A stretch of DNA of 64,000 nt from Aliarcobacter butzleri (GCF_900187115.1 NZ_LT906455.1:558001-622000); one strand, 5' to 3'; counted from the first letter of the stretch, positions 3,759 to 41,501 are shown. Made by a program: numbers and translations. The notes: a model not told the origin generated them from the sequence alone.

Positions 3759-4487
3759 ATGTTCAAAAATTTATTTAAAACGATGCTTTTATTGAGTTTA
3801 GGATTTTTAACGTTAAATGCTTCAGTTGTAAATGATGGATTTGAAGAGTTAGAAAAAGGAAATGTTTTAGAAGCTGCAAATATTTTTCAAAACAGTTGTA
3901 ATGAAGGTGCAAGTTCTGGTTGTTATAATCTAGGACTTATGTATTACAAAGGTGATAAAATTGCGAAAAATTATCCAAAAGCAGTACAACTTTTTTCAAA
4001 AGCTTGTGATTTAGGACATACAAATGCTTGTTACAATTTGGCTTATATGTATGAAAATGCACAAGAAGTAAAAGACTCTTTTAAAGCTGTTGAACTATAT
4101 GAAAAACTTTGTAATCAAGGAATTAGTGCAGCTTGTTATAATCTTGGAACTATGTATGAAACTGGTGATGGAGTTGAAAGACACACTTTTAAAGCGGTTG
4201 AATTTTTAACAAAAGCTTGTGATTTGAATCATGCAAAAGCTTGTTATAACCTAGCTGTAAAATACCAAAATGAAGATGGAGTTGAAAAAGCACCTTTAAA
4301 AGCTGCAAACTTATATATAAAATCTTGTGATTTAGGAAATGCATCAGCTTGTTATAATCTTGGAATTATGTATAGCGATGGTAAATTTTTTGCAAAAAAT
4401 AGTGCAAATGCAAAAGAGTATTTTAGAAGAGCTTGTGATATGAATTTTGATGAAGCTTGTAAAGCTTACAATAATCTCAATAAATAA
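3759..4487 (+). CDS. Secreted cysteine-rich Sel1-repeat protein (Hcp-like)
   Basis: A 242-residue protein with an N-terminal signal peptide (about residues 1-21, ending LNA) followed by about six Sel1/TPR-like repeats of 36 residues. Each repeat carries two cysteines in the pattern SC-x6-7-CYNLGxMY, as in the Helicobacter cysteine-rich proteins HcpA-E, where the pair forms one disulfide per repeat. Such proteins are periplasmic or secreted; penicillin binding has been reported for some Hcps, but the general role is unclear. The gene has its own promoter and terminator. The family call is strong; the biological role is open. Confidence 0.88.
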   Translation: MFKNLFKTMLLLSLGFLTLNASVVNDGFEELEKGNVLEAANIFQNSCNEGASSGCYNLGLMYYKGDKIAKNYPKAVQLFSKACDLGHTNACYNLAYMYENAQEVKDSFKAVELYEKLCNQGISAACYNLGTMYETGDGVERHTFKAVEFLTKACDLNHAKACYNLAVKYQNEDGVEKAPLKAANLYIKSCDLGNASACYNLGIMYSDGKFFAKNSANAKEYFRRACDMNFDEACKAYNNLNK

Positions 4488-36984: not shown

Positions 36985-37548
36985 ATGCTAAACTTTAGTA
37001 AAAAAGATTTTACAGCAACAAATGTAATTATTATAATTACAGTTTTATTTTATTTAATCCAAATAAATGTACAACAAGGAAGTTTATTATTTGGATTAAA
37101 TTTATACTTTTTAATTGGTGGTTTTTATTGGCAACCACTAACTTCTATCTTTTCTCACGGTGGAATCGCTCACTTAGCTATGAATATGTTTGTACTTTGG
37201 CAATTTGGTAATTATGTAGAAAGATCAAGAGGTGCAAAAGCTTTTGTTTTATTGTATTTAATAACAGGAGTTTTAACCTCTCTTTTCTCATTTTTATATA
37301 TCTTTTTTTTAGATATTACTGTAAATTTAGTAGGAGCAAGTGGAGCAATTTGTGCTATTTTAGGATATGTTGCATATTTTGATAAAGTTCAAAGAAGTGG
37401 AATTATAACTTGGATTTTATTAATTTCTGTTGCTCCTTTACTTATTGGACTTCCTATTGCTTGGTATGCTCACTTTATTGGACTAGCTATTGGATTTATT
37501 TATGCAATAATTGATAAATCTATACTTTTAAAAAAATATAAAAGATGA
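36985..37548 (+). CDS. Rhomboid family intramembrane serine protease
   Basis: A 187-residue, six-helix membrane protease. Catalytic serine in LVGASGAICAILGY and catalytic histidine in WYAHFIGLAIGF. The oxyanion/loop motif HGGIAHLAMNMFVLWQFG is present. The first helix ends early, giving the compact core form. It starts three bases after lon and overlaps the phosphatase gene by 4 nt. Substrate unknown. Confidence 0.93.
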   Translation: MLNFSKKDFTATNVIIIITVLFYLIQINVQQGSLLFGLNLYFLIGGFYWQPLTSIFSHGGIAHLAMNMFVLWQFGNYVERSRGAKAFVLLYLITGVLTSLFSFLYIFFLDITVNLVGASGAICAILGYVAYFDKVQRSGIITWILLISVAPLLIGLPIAWYAHFIGLAIGFIYAIIDKSILLKKYKR

Positions 37549-38003
37549 AGAGATCAATTTTATTTGTATGCTTAGGAAACATTTGTCGTTCTCCTTTAGC
37601 TCATGGTATTGCACAAGAATATATAAACAAAGAACAGCTTGATATTTTAGTAGATAGTGCTGGAACGGGCTCTTGGCATATTGGTGAAGCTCCTTGTGAA
37701 AATTCAATAAAAGTTGCATTGTTAAATGGTGTTGATATATCAAAGCAAAAAGCAAGGCAAGTAAAAAAAGATGATTTTCAAAAGTTTGATTTTGTTATTG
37801 CACTTGATGATAATAACTTAAAAGATTTGAAGAATTTAGGTTGTAAAAATCCTCTAAAACTTGGAGATTTTGGATATGAAGGAGCTTGTGTTCCTGACCC
37901 ATACTACTTTAGAGATTTTGAAGATTTTAAAAATGTTTATTCTATGATTGAAACTTGTGTTAAAAATTTGATTGATGACTTAATTAATAATGATATAGCA
38001 TAA
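37545..38003 (+). CDS. Low molecular weight protein-tyrosine phosphatase
   Basis: A 152-residue phosphatase with the P-loop CLGNICRS (Cys10-Leu-Gly-Asn-Ile-Cys-Arg16) at the N-terminus and the general-acid Asp in PDPYYFRD. These enzymes remove phosphate from protein tyrosines, often tyrosine kinases of capsule export. No such kinase is nearby. The start overlaps the rhomboid stop by 4 nt (ATGA), so translation is coupled. Confidence 0.95.
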   Translation: MKRSILFVCLGNICRSPLAHGIAQEYINKEQLDILVDSAGTGSWHIGEAPCENSIKVALLNGVDISKQKARQVKKDDFQKFDFVIALDDNNLKDLKNLGCKNPLKLGDFGYEGACVPDPYYFRDFEDFKNVYSMIETCVKNLIDDLINNDIA

Positions 38004-38042
38004 TATTAGCTACAATTACGGAAAAACGTTATAGGGATAAAG

Positions 38043-39332
38043 ATGAATAAAGCAACTACTTTTTATGAAATACAAGATGCAGTAGCATTTAATAACCCAA
38101 TAGATGAAAAAAATGAGTTTTATACAGATTTCTCAGGATTTAGAAAAGGCTTTAACGAAAAAAAGATTTTTAAATATCTAAATATCAAGCCTACAACAAA
38201 AGAGTGTAATAAAATATCTCAAACATTAAAACTTTTTTTAAGTGGACATAGAGGTACGGGAAAAACAACAGAATTATTAAAATTAAAAAATGAAATTGAT
38301 GAAACAACTTGCTTTTTTTCAGTATTTTGTGATTTAAGTGATGAGGAACTAGATGTAAATAATATTGATTTTATAGATATTATTATTCTAATTCTAGAAA
38401 AATTAACTAAAACATTAGATGATAAAAAGATTGATATTCCAAAAGCAAATATAGAACCTTTTTATGATTGGTATGAACAAAGAATTACTGAAATAAATAA
38501 TCAAACTGATGAATCAGCTTCTATTGAAGTTGAGGGAAAAGCTGGAATAGATTTATTTTCTTTATTCTCATTAGTAAGTAAAACAAAAGGTAAATTATCT
38601 GGTTCAAATAGTACAAAAGAGACTATTAGAAAAGTATTTAAAAATAAATTTTCAGATTTTAGTTTAAAATTTAATGAGTTTATTTTAGATATAAAAGGTT
38701 ATTTACTAAAAAATGAAATTTCAAAAGATTTACTTTTTATTATTGATGGTTTTGAAAAAATTGGAAGTTTAGAAGATAGGAAAAAAATATTAATTGATAA
38801 TTCAAATAAATTTGTTGAAATAAAAGCAAATATGATTATTACTTTGCCAATTGAGCTTTTTTCAGAGGTTTCAAGATTAAAAGAGTTTGCTAGTCATATT
38901 TCTTTTCCCCTAATTTCTTTAGATAATAATTCAAAAGAGAGATTTAAAGAGTTTATATATAAAAGAATAGAAAAAAGTCTCTTTGATAGCGAACAAACAG
39001 TTGAAAAAATCATTTATTATGGTGCTGGGTCTCCAAGAGAAACATTAAAAATAATTTTAGAAGCTTATGTTCAAGCAGAAGGAGAAATTATAGATTTAAA
39101 AAGTGTACAAGATGCTCAAAAATCTATAAGTGAAGAGTTGATGAAATATCTTGATGAAAAAGAAATTTCACTTTTAAAACAAGTATATACTAAAACTAAA
39201 ATACCTTTTAGTGATGAACTTGCAAAACTACTCATTAAAAAAGTGCTTTTAGATTATGAAGATGGACTTGAAAGAAAAATAAATCCAATTTTATTAGATA
39301 ATCAAGATTTTATTAATCTAATAAAGGCTTGA
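38043..39332 (+). CDS. P-loop ATPase of a two-gene ATPase/TPR module
   Basis: A 429-residue cytoplasmic P-loop NTPase. Walker A is G68-HRGTGKTT76 and Walker B is LLFIIDGFEK with Asp235. After the NTPase core an ORC/STAND-like helical region follows (YGAGSPRETLKIILEAYVQA) with a C-terminal winged-helix-like tail (ALLKQVYTKTKIPFSDEL-like). The closest general type is a STAND/AAA signal ATPase, but no specific family was recognised. It is preceded by ATAGGGATAAAG and is coupled by a four-base overlap region to the TPR partner gene, so the two surely act together. A defence or signalling role is possible but unproven. Confidence 0.78.
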   Translation: MNKATTFYEIQDAVAFNNPIDEKNEFYTDFSGFRKGFNEKKIFKYLNIKPTTKECNKISQTLKLFLSGHRGTGKTTELLKLKNEIDETTCFFSVFCDLSDEELDVNNIDFIDIIILILEKLTKTLDDKKIDIPKANIEPFYDWYEQRITEINNQTDESASIEVEGKAGIDLFSLFSLVSKTKGKLSGSNSTKETIRKVFKNKFSDFSLKFNEFILDIKGYLLKNEISKDLLFIIDGFEKIGSLEDRKKILIDNSNKFVEIKANMIITLPIELFSEVSRLKEFASHISFPLISLDNNSKERFKEFIYKRIEKSLFDSEQTVEKIIYYGAGSPRETLKIILEAYVQAEGEIIDLKSVQDAQKSISEELMKYLDEKEISLLKQVYTKTKIPFSDELAKLLIKKVLLDYEDGLERKINPILLDNQDFINLIKA

Positions 39333-39334
39333 TT

Positions 39335-41017
39335 TTGAGTAGTGAGTTAAAGTTTGAAGAGTTACAAAAAAAACTAAAAAAAGTTTTAAATACAAATAGA
39401 TTTAGATTTATTTTTATTTTTTATCCAAATGAAAATTTAAGAGAAGAGATAAAAAATCATATTTGCGAAAGTTTTACTTCTTCAAATCAAATAACTCTTA
39501 ACCTAAAAGATAATACTTATCAAGATATTGCACCAATACTCTATGAAAATGATAAAAGTTTTATTTTCATAGATGATTTTTTTGATGTATTAGATAATGC
39601 TGATTTATATAATGGATTCAATCAAAGAAGAGATAAAATAGCGTCTAAAAATATAAATCTTATTTGTTTTGTGAATTCAAATTTTAAAGAGAAGTTTTTC
39701 CAAACATCAATAGAATATATTCCTGATTTAATTGAATTTAAAAATGCTATTTTTGAAATAGAAACACCAAATAATTATGAAAACAGATTAATATTAAAAG
39801 AAGTTTTAAGTAGTTCATATAGCTCTTTGGGTGGATTAACAACACAAAGTAAAAAAGAAGAACTTCAAAGATTACTTCTAAAACTTAATGACGTAGAAAA
39901 CGTTGTAGAAAAATTAAATTTATTTTCTCAAATAACGACAATATATAGAGATGTAGGAGAATTTAAAAAAGCTTTAGAATATCAAGAAAAAATTTTAAAA
40001 TTAGAAGAAGAGAATTTAGAAAAAAATCATCCTAATTTAGCATCAACTTACAATAATATTTCCACAATTTATCATGAAATGGAAGAGTTAGAAAAAGCAT
40101 TAGAATATCAAAAAAAAGCAATAGATTTAAAAGAAGCCATTTTAAAAAAGAACTATCCTGATTTGGCAATAAGTTATAATAATATTTCTATGATTTACCA
40201 AGATATGGGAGATTTAAAAAAGGCGTTAGAATACCAACAAAAAGCTTTAGAAATTAGAGAAAAGTTTTCAGAAGTTGGAAAATCAGATTTAGCTACATCA
40301 TATAATAATATTTCGGTAATTTATAAAAATATAGGAAACTTAAATAAGGCTTTAGAATATCAACAAAAAGCTTTAAAGATATTTGAAGAAATTTTAGAAG
40401 AAAATCATCCTAATTTAGCTACATCATATAGTAATATTTCAATAATTTATCAAGAAATAGGAGACTTAAAAAAAGCATTAGAATACCAAGAAAAAGCTCT
40501 AAAATTAAGAGAAGAAATTTTGGGATATAGGCATCCTGATTTAGCAACAAGTTATAATAACATTTCTACGATTTACAAAAGTATGGGAGAGTTAAAAAAA
40601 GCATTGGAATATCAAGAAAAAGCCTTAAAATTAAGAGAAGATATTTTAGGGTGGAAACACCCTCTTTTAATAAGCTGTTATAACAATATATCGTTAATTT
40701 ATCAAGATATGGGAGAGTTAAAAAAAGCTTTGGGATATCAAGAGAAAGCCTTAAAATTAGGAGAAGAAATTTTAGGAGATAAACATCCTGATTTAGCAAT
40801 AAGTTATAATAATATATCAGCAATTTATAAAGATTTAAAAGAGTGTTTAAAAGCAAAAGGGTATATTCAAAAAGCAATTGATATTTGGCAGGAGTATGAA
40901 TATTATTATAAAGAATTAGCTAATGCTAAAAAATTTATAAAAGAGATTGAATTAAATATAAAAAAAGAGAATAAACTTCCTTTCAATAAAAAAGGAAGAT
41001 TTTGTAAAGATATTTAG
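39335..41017 (+). CDS. TPR-repeat protein with degenerate ATPase-like N-terminus
   Basis: A 560-residue protein. Residues ~20-140 look like a P-loop fold without a Walker A (RFIFIFYPNENLREEIK) but with a Walker-B-like KSFIFIDDFFDVLD. Eight 42-residue kinesin-light-chain-type TPR units follow (consensus YNNISxIYxxMGxLKKALEYQEKALKL), then a short basic tail. I chose the TTG seven bases after AAAGG; the TTG two codons earlier overlaps the ATPase stop but sits one base from that site. Such TPR arrays bind partner proteins and are typical of STAND-ATPase sensors. Here the ATPase and repeats are on separate chains. Confidence 0.78.
   Translation: MSSELKFEELQKKLKKVLNTNRFRFIFIFYPNENLREEIKNHICESFTSSNQITLNLKDNTYQDIAPILYENDKSFIFIDDFFDVLDNADLYNGFNQRRDKIASKNINLICFVNSNFKEKFFQTSIEYIPDLIEFKNAIFEIETPNNYENRLILKEVLSSSYSSLGGLTTQSKKEELQRLLLKLNDVENVVEKLNLFSQITTIYRDVGEFKKALEYQEKILKLEEENLEKNHPNLASTYNNISTIYHEMEELEKALEYQKKAIDLKEAILKKNYPDLAISYNNISMIYQDMGDLKKALEYQQKALEIREKFSEVGKSDLATSYNNISVIYKNIGNLNKALEYQQKALKIFEEILEENHPNLATSYSNISIIYQEIGDLKKALEYQEKALKLREEILGYRHPDLATSYNNISTIYKSMGELKKALEYQEKALKLREDILGWKHPLLISCYNNISLIYQDMGELKKALGYQEKALKLGEEILGDKHPDLAISYNNISAIYKDLKECLKAKGYIQKAIDIWQEYEYYYKELANAKKFIKEIELNIKKENKLPFNKKGRFCKDI
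39911..40918 (+). repeat. Eight tandem 126-bp coding repeats
   Basis: In-frame repeats in the TPR gene, with unit starts at 39911, 40037, 40163, 40289, 40415, 40541, 40667 and 40793, each exactly 126 bp (42 residues). The middle units are strongly similar at DNA level (TATAATAATATTTC, AAAGCTTTAGAATATCAA-like blocks), so copy number could change by recombination. Confidence 0.9.
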
Positions 41018-41069
41018 AATTTTTACTTTCTATTGAAACTTCTCTTAAGAACTTAATAAAAGACAAAAT

Positions 41070-41501
41070 TTAATTACCTAATTTAGATAATATTTTGTTA
41101 CAAATTTTAATAATATCTTCTTGCTCTTCGCTACTTAGTTCAATTTTACACTCCATATTTTTGAAAATATGAGCTGTTTTATCTTTCAAATCTTTCCCTT
41201 CTTTTGTTAATTTTATTATTTTCCCTCGTTCATCGCTTAATGATTGCGTTCTGATAATATACGATTTTTCTTCTAACCTTTTTAAAATAGGTGTTAGTGT
41301 AGCCGAATCAAAAAATGTCTCTTTGCTTATATCTTTTATTAGTATATTGTCATTGTTCCAAAGTGTCATCATCACCAAATATTGAGGATAAGTTAGTTGA
41401 AATTCTTCCAAATGAGGTCTATACTCTCTAATCATTGCGTTTGATGTTGAATTCAATAAAAAGCAAATCATTTTAGAGAAATCAAATTCTTTATTTTTCA
41501 T
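41070..41501 (-). CDS. MarR-family regulator, OhrR-like (one-cysteine peroxide sensor type)
   Basis: A 143-residue winged-helix regulator. It fits the OhrR subgroup: Cys13 in KMICFLLNS at the sensing position, IREYRPHLEEFQLTYPQYLVMMTLW, the DNA-binding segment FFDSATLTPILKRLEEKSYI and the wing SLSDERGKIIKLT. OhrR proteins release DNA when the cysteine is oxidised by organic peroxide. It is divergent from a cupin gene across a 138-bp region with two TTGTGTACAAA boxes, one of them covering its own -35, which points to autoregulation and control of the cupin gene. Confidence 0.87.
   Translation of the reverse strand: MKNKEFDFSKMICFLLNSTSNAMIREYRPHLEEFQLTYPQYLVMMTLWNNDNILIKDISKETFFDSATLTPILKRLEEKSYIIRTQSLSDERGKIIKLTKEGKDLKDKTAHIFKNMECKIELSSEEQEDIIKICNKILSKLGN

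Follow-up and report, generated by a model that had tools for sequence, protein, structure and literature searches.

A two-gene P-loop ATPase and TPR-array module in Aliarcobacter butzleri, a candidate mobile receptor of the STAND/NLR type

Positions 38,043 to 41,017 of the window, by which we mean the whole 64,000-nucleotide stretch of Aliarcobacter butzleri DNA that was analyzed, hold two genes, here called A and T. With slightly more confidence than doubt, we read them as a mobile intracellular receptor made of two subunits, of the STAND/NLR type and probably engaged in conflict with phages or other invaders. Gene A encodes a P-loop ATPase. The product of gene T begins with an N-domain of ~165 residues, which a short linker joins to eight TPRs of 42 residues each and a short tail.

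Motifs and domains of the two genes

The features are as follows, with positions counted from the first letter of the window.

37941..37963, plus strand: left border, the end of the recipient's own LMW-PTP (low-molecular-weight phosphatase) gene, TCTATGATTGAAACTTGTGTTAA, identical in the empty-site relative (G001/L032)
37964..38042, plus strand: foreign LMW-PTP 3' end and 39-nt spacer, resembling the module carrier G018 (junction sequences)
38043..39332, plus strand: gene A, a 429-aa P-loop ATPase (STAND/KAP/AAA+-like), from its ORF, homologues, and motifs
38244..38267, plus strand: gene A Walker A, GHRGTGKT, residues 68-75, with G68, G71, G73, and K74 invariant in 9 homologues
38733..38756, plus strand: gene A Walker B, LFIIDGFE, residues 231-238, with I233 and D235 invariant
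38964..38966, plus strand: gene A Arg308, invariant in 9 homologues, a candidate arginine finger
39027..39038, plus strand: gene A GSPR motif, residues 329-332, putatively sensor-2/GxP-like, with R332 invariant
39335..41017, plus strand: gene T, 560 aa, starting at a TTG that follows the A stop by 2 nt; start and ribosome-binding site conserved in L010
39335..39829, plus strand: T N-domain, residues 1-165, without Walker A (motifs, predicted strand-helix alternation)
39902..40909, plus strand: TPR array of T, residues 190-525, with eight units of 42 aa, of which 1 and 8 are conserved caps and 2-7 turn over
40910..41014, plus strand: C-terminal tail of T, residues 526-560, common only to the window and the G018 homologue
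41019..41075, unstranded: right border, where the LMW-PTP 3' end recurs as a displaced copy and passes into host sequence almost identical to that of the empty site (junction sequences)

The Walker A and B motifs of gene A, which a first-pass annotation of this DNA had called intact, are present and invariant across nine homologues from two phyla, as are T267-P269, R308, R332, and N414-P415; this invariance is as would be expected for a working ATPase. Identity to gene A is 84% in G018, 46-50% at three Campylobacterales/Nitratifractor MAG loci, 26-27% in G056, and 22-24% on cyanobacterial plasmids. The Pfam models AAA_16 and NACHT stay below their cut-offs on the window protein (17.7 of 32.6 bits and 15.6 of 26.7 bits, respectively), and the best curated family, Sll1717 (NF047389), reaches 31.6 bits over residues 52-372 against a cut-off of 75. 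Remote homologues pass KAP_NTPase (24.8 and 34.4 bits, cut-off 20), and because a cyanobacterial homologue lies above the cut-offs of KAP_NTPase, AAA_22, and NPHP3_N, we place gene A among the STAND/KAP-like P-loop ATPases. The AF2 model of gene A is poor (pLDDT 58); Foldseek with this model returned weak, non-significant AAA+ matches (HslU, RFC, TnsC, and RuvB), and a PDB sequence search with the gene A profile found nothing. A search for effector domains in A and T found none, which bears out the earlier statement that no recognizable effector is encoded.

The homologue L010, which is 84% identical, shares both the TTG start of gene T and its AAAGG ribosome-binding site, and TTG at 39335, 2 nt past the A stop, is most likely the start; because it is conserved, the proposed coupling of T at the stop codon of A, with the two genes on the same strand, holds. 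The T N-domain carries conserved stretches (FRF, IDDF, FNQRRDK-AS, and IPDL-EF), and AF2 predicts alternating strands and helices at residues 24-30, 33-46, 51-54, 62-71, 74-79, 89-104, 108-114, 115-128, and 139-141. From this model we infer a strand/helix order like that of P-loop domains, in which IDDF would stand where Walker B is expected. No family model matches the N-domain above its cut-off, a profile comparison with gene A is non-significant (E 0.33), a PDB sequence search gave chance matches only, and Foldseek with T is uninformative on the N-domain, as TPRs dominate its matches. Thus, of the Walker-A-less, ATPase-like N-terminus that had been described, the absence of Walker A stands in five homologues, while the likeness to an ATPase comes from the predicted strand/helix order.

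Insertion, distribution, and relatives of the module

Judged from its borders and its occurrence, the A-T module is an accessory, inserted mobile block. In the relative G001, whose site is empty, the LMW-PTP gene is directly followed by a MarR-type gene, with flanks 97% (left) and 95% (right) identical to those of the window. In the window, the last LMW-PTP codons are replaced by a G018-like 3' end, after which come A and T, and the original LMW-PTP 3' end sits behind T as an imperfect direct repeat; the genes flanking the module are those for LMW-PTP and the MarR-type regulator. No integrase was found within the inserted block. The module of G018 also lies behind LMW-PTP, ahead of selO, and G017 has LMW-PTP and then selO without the module; elsewhere, it lies beside hydrogenase and hypF genes or between a TRAP-transporter gene and dnaK. 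The GC content of the module is 0.234 versus 0.270 for the window. Between the window and G018, dS is 0.35 for A versus 0.46-0.81 for its neighbors, a low value that, taken by itself, is only suggestive of horizontal transfer of A.

We note that what lies behind the LMW-PTP gene (the gene itself is at window 37545-38003 and recurs in L032-L044) comprises a MarR-type gene, selO, chemoreceptor genes, other ORFs, or the A-T module; since it differs between related genomes, the position may be an insertion hotspot. In a Nitratifractor MAG (L017:7261-9707), the module has hydrogenase genes on one side and hypF on the other, all on the same strand, and may therefore have inserted into that operon.

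The two genes travel together. T is the next gene after all six intact A genes found in Campylobacterota (window, L010, L011, L017/L022, L020, and L021), with both genes open in every pair, and this conserved pairing is more than chance. Across the phylum samples (397 and 387 genomes), strong hits to A coincide with strong hits to T in two genomes, with a broken T remnant in G287 as the one addition. Within the family, gene A turned up in 2 of 104 genomes; in the class the count is 3 of 298 (one a weak match), and among relatives 3 of 60. Scanning genome contigs with the single A protein gave no relatives, while an alignment query gave three; weak genome hits to the A6 profile have E values of 1e-4 to 1e-3 and cover short stretches. 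Presence in every relative with a fixed repeat number, as part of a housekeeping family, had been named as the outcome that would speak against a sensor; the module is instead rare and patchy, and repeat number varies in almost every homologue. Scans of viral contigs, with A and the T N-domain as queries, gave no homologue at the sensitivity used, and neither did the phage records searched. A separate locus in G287 (L018:3650-3835) holds an orphan T N-domain interrupted by a stop, beside a Crp-type regulator and without an ATPase gene, which appears to be a decayed copy of the module.

A profile built from Campylobacterota A proteins only, with matches that cover most of their length, also reaches beyond that phylum, where the gene A family recurs in conflict-type settings, as judged from the company it keeps (TIR, MoxR, and STAND-WD40). 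This profile matches a Nostoc plasmid protein in its C-terminal part (E 1e-22), an ATPase-TIR fusion in Calothrix (E 2e-22), and, more weakly, an Acidisarcina plasmid protein near CHAT and TPR genes (E 2e-9). The Nostoc protein (L029:3388-7260, Nostoc sp. C057 plasmid p057_J) is 974 aa long, is annotated as SAV_2336 N-terminal-related, and directly follows a MoxR ATPase gene. Its C-terminal 400 residues are a gene-A-type ATPase, and a vWA-like stretch in it was read by eye, with none reported by Pfam at the threshold used. The Calothrix locus (L023:6926-10381, Calothrix sp. NIES-4101 plasmid4) holds two neighboring genes of the A-type ATPase family, the second with a C-terminal TIR (PF13676, E 1.5e-33), and a protein with an nSTAND1 domain is encoded downstream of the two. 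On Acaryochloris and Nostoc plasmids, the gene after A encodes a protein whose N-domain looks similar to that of T and precedes TPR-like, STAND, and WD40 parts. Homology of this partner's N-domain to that of T is at best tentative: the motif order is colinear, but the hhalign E value of 0.22 is non-significant, and the better-ranked HMM comparisons rank at ~1e-3 to 1e-2 among shuffles.

Turnover and diversification of the TPR array

Eight TPRs of 42 residues and of the kinesin-light-chain type had been proposed for gene T, and the TPR_10 model of Pfam matches T in 8 stretches (E 4e-78); the repeats are of the TPR_10/TPR_12 (kinesin-light-chain) type. AF2 predicts the TPR part of T at high confidence, and it resembles LGN, kinesin light chain, and consensus TPRs. 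At the DNA level, TRF reports an array at 39949-40834 with a period of 126 and 74% matches between units, and the most similar pair of window units reaches 78% nucleotide and 76% amino-acid identity. The window units are therefore similar rather than nearly identical, and the description of near-identical DNA repeats was mistaken for the window (74-78%). Such identity is seen solely in the relative L021, where two adjacent units are 99% identical in DNA and one pair is 100% identical in amino acids. Elsewhere in the window, a tandem repeat with a period of 108 (4130-4373) encodes Sel1-like repeats of the YNLGIMYQNEDGVEKAPLKAANLYTKACDLENA type within the ORF at 3759-4487.

Repeat number over the six loci is 8 (window), 6 (G018), 7, 6, 4, and at least 9, so the predicted copy number variation is seen among species (4 to 9+), each represented by one genome. 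Comparison of the window with G018 suggests where the array changes. The first and last repeats are reciprocal best matches, as expected of orthologous units, whereas window repeats 2-7 are 64-76% identical to each other and 55-62% identical to any G018 repeat. Identity between the two proteins is 85% in the T N-domain versus 57% in the TPR region, with dN of 0.079 versus 0.295, respectively.

TPR ligand positions are variable in general. The greatest variability in the TPR is at positions 2, 5, 9, 12, and 13, together with 33 and 34, all on its concave face, and several of the former five contact ligands in cocrystals (PMC1261162). We compared adjacent inner repeats at positions 2, 5, 9, 12, and 13 in five proteins (15 pairs pooled); the per-column profile had already been inspected before this test was run, and position 5, a conserved Asn here, was left in the tested set. 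At these ligand-facing positions, pN is 0.39 versus a pS of 0.26 (Fisher p 0.0009), whereas the remaining TPR positions are constrained (pN 0.145, p 4e-7); when five columns are drawn at random, 0.3% of draws reach a pN of 0.39 (p 0.003). The window's own repeats have an overall dN/dS of 0.39, and the excess at ligand-facing positions therefore leans on the pooled homologues. Together, these comparisons support the view that the inner repeats of T diversify at ligand-facing positions, the same regime as in fungal NLR TPRs, whose repeats diversify at the interaction surface (PMC4986451).

Interpretation and comparison with known systems

The first-pass annotation had proposed a split sensor. 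In favor of a sensor are a rare, patchy, inserted module, diversification at the ligand face, and the conflict-type relatives of A. The link to phages fared less well: PADLOC gives no match for A, and its matches for T are weak or to generic TPRs; there is no defence island around the A-T genes, and no phage or viral homologue was found. In the mechanism that we propose, gene A would be a constant NTP switch and gene T the recognizer, with its fixed N-domain probably docking on A. The concave face of the TPR array would bind a peptide or protein trigger, and specificity would shift by duplication, loss, and substitution of repeats at ligand-facing positions. Binding of the trigger would then release ATP-dependent assembly of A and T. 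Since neither protein carries an effector domain, the output would come from this assembly itself or from a partner recruited from elsewhere. Within this mechanism, we infer the A-T contact, the docking of the putative pseudo-ATPase, oligomerization, an invader as the trigger, and the output.

One alternative is a pair serving a host process. In an accessory chaperone, scaffold, or regulatory pair, the ATPase would remodel a complex recruited by the TPR protein, and the diversity of the array would reflect different clients and have no part in immunity. Pairs of TPR proteins and ATPases commonly serve as scaffolds, the TPRs of T fold most nearly like LGN, kinesin light chain, and consensus TPRs with no effector domain attached, and copies of the module adjoin unrelated genes such as those for hydrogenase maturation. 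We nevertheless consider such a pair rather unlikely, given the sporadic presence of the module, the empty site in a near relative, neighbors that vary by site, diversification concentrated at ligand-facing positions, and A relatives that carry TIR or sit behind MoxR genes.

A receptor of the same molecular layout might instead be directed at self/non-self recognition or at competitors (secreted toxins or contact-dependent signals) and lie outside phage or plasmid defence. TPR arrays that are internally repeated and diversifying typify fungal NLRs, where the context is non-self recognition (PMC4986451), and nothing specific to phages was seen for A-T; but no linked toxin, immunity, or secretion genes occur among the neighbors read in the window and G018, and we regard this role as improbable. 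The rarity of the module and the isolated, broken T N-domain remnant in G287 would suit a decaying or selfish cassette with no present function, kept by transfer alone. That both genes are open in six of six pairs, and that dN/dS between the window and G018 is purifying (A 0.26, T N-domain 0.14), makes such a cassette very improbable.

Returning to the mobile two-subunit receptor, a more far-reaching form of it can be put forward only tentatively, as a possibility: an NLR-like immune receptor split in two, its constant ATPase serving a separate recognizer whose array is rewritten by recombination and selection, the whole moving as a 3-kb cassette, with TPRs in Campylobacterota and a related ATPase with STAND-WD40 or TIR in cyanobacteria. 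If the receptor reading is right, the switch and recognizer of an NLR-type receptor are split onto two small proteins, each testable alone; the array is a bacterial case of recognition diversifying through repeat turnover; and an uncharacterized ATPase family takes its place in the conflict systems of two or more phyla. The sister module, 84% identical but with a different array, would offer the same switch with two specificities and, together with the clean empty site, suits experiments.

Among described systems, DS-41 (DefensePredictor, PMC13092281; NF053860) resembles gene A in being a P-loop ATPase with weak similarity around Walker A, but it was rejected as the family of gene A, which scores 27.9 bits against a cut-off of 370 and has a different partner. 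As a separate observation, a close relative of the anti-phage ATPase of DS-41 (363 of 370 bits) is encoded in a genome of the window's family (G310, L064:5282-8164), and the 440-aa gene behind it has no TPRs. In iSTAND/MoxR-vWA ternary conflict systems, an inactive STAND module has been proposed as the sensing component (PMC7159879). A relative of gene A recalls these systems in forming the C-terminal part of the Nostoc protein behind a MoxR gene, whereas A-T consists of two genes only, with no MoxR or vWA gene beside it or among its flanks (LMW-PTP and MarR-type in the window, LMW-PTP and selO in G018). Single-chain STAND/NLR receptors such as fungal NLRs (PMC4986451) likewise join an NTPase to a TPR array, with polymorphic repeat number and a diversifying interaction surface. 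Gene A shares Walker A and B with them, with no curated STAND, NACHT, or AAA_16 model above its cut-off. A-T differs in placing the switch and the superstructure-forming repeats on two proteins, the repeats being on gene T, and in having no effector domain; the between-repeat identity used for fungal NLRs is 85% (PMC4986451), and the best in the window is 76%.

The nearest published description of the layout is the nSTAND2 two-gene conflict operon (PMC8195603), a mobile operon for an active STAND subunit and an inactive one, to which variable modules are attached, GT4 or HEPN being the commonest (eLife 2021, PMC8195603, Fig. 6C). No GT4 or HEPN module was found on T, which gave only TPR families and sub-threshold noise; the published partner is fused to such effectors, whereas T carries TPRs alone. 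The nSTAND2 layout matches and the effector type differs, the MoxR and vWA genes of iSTAND systems are absent, and DS-41 is distinct; an anti-phage role of A-T is kept as a hypothesis. The likeness to nSTAND2 is one of layout: both are mobile two-gene operons with one active ATPase (for A-T, from six paired loci, an empty site, and intact motifs) and a partner that carries the variable part and that, in the case of T, has no Walker A and a P-loop-like predicted strand order, with no significant profile match to a STAND domain.
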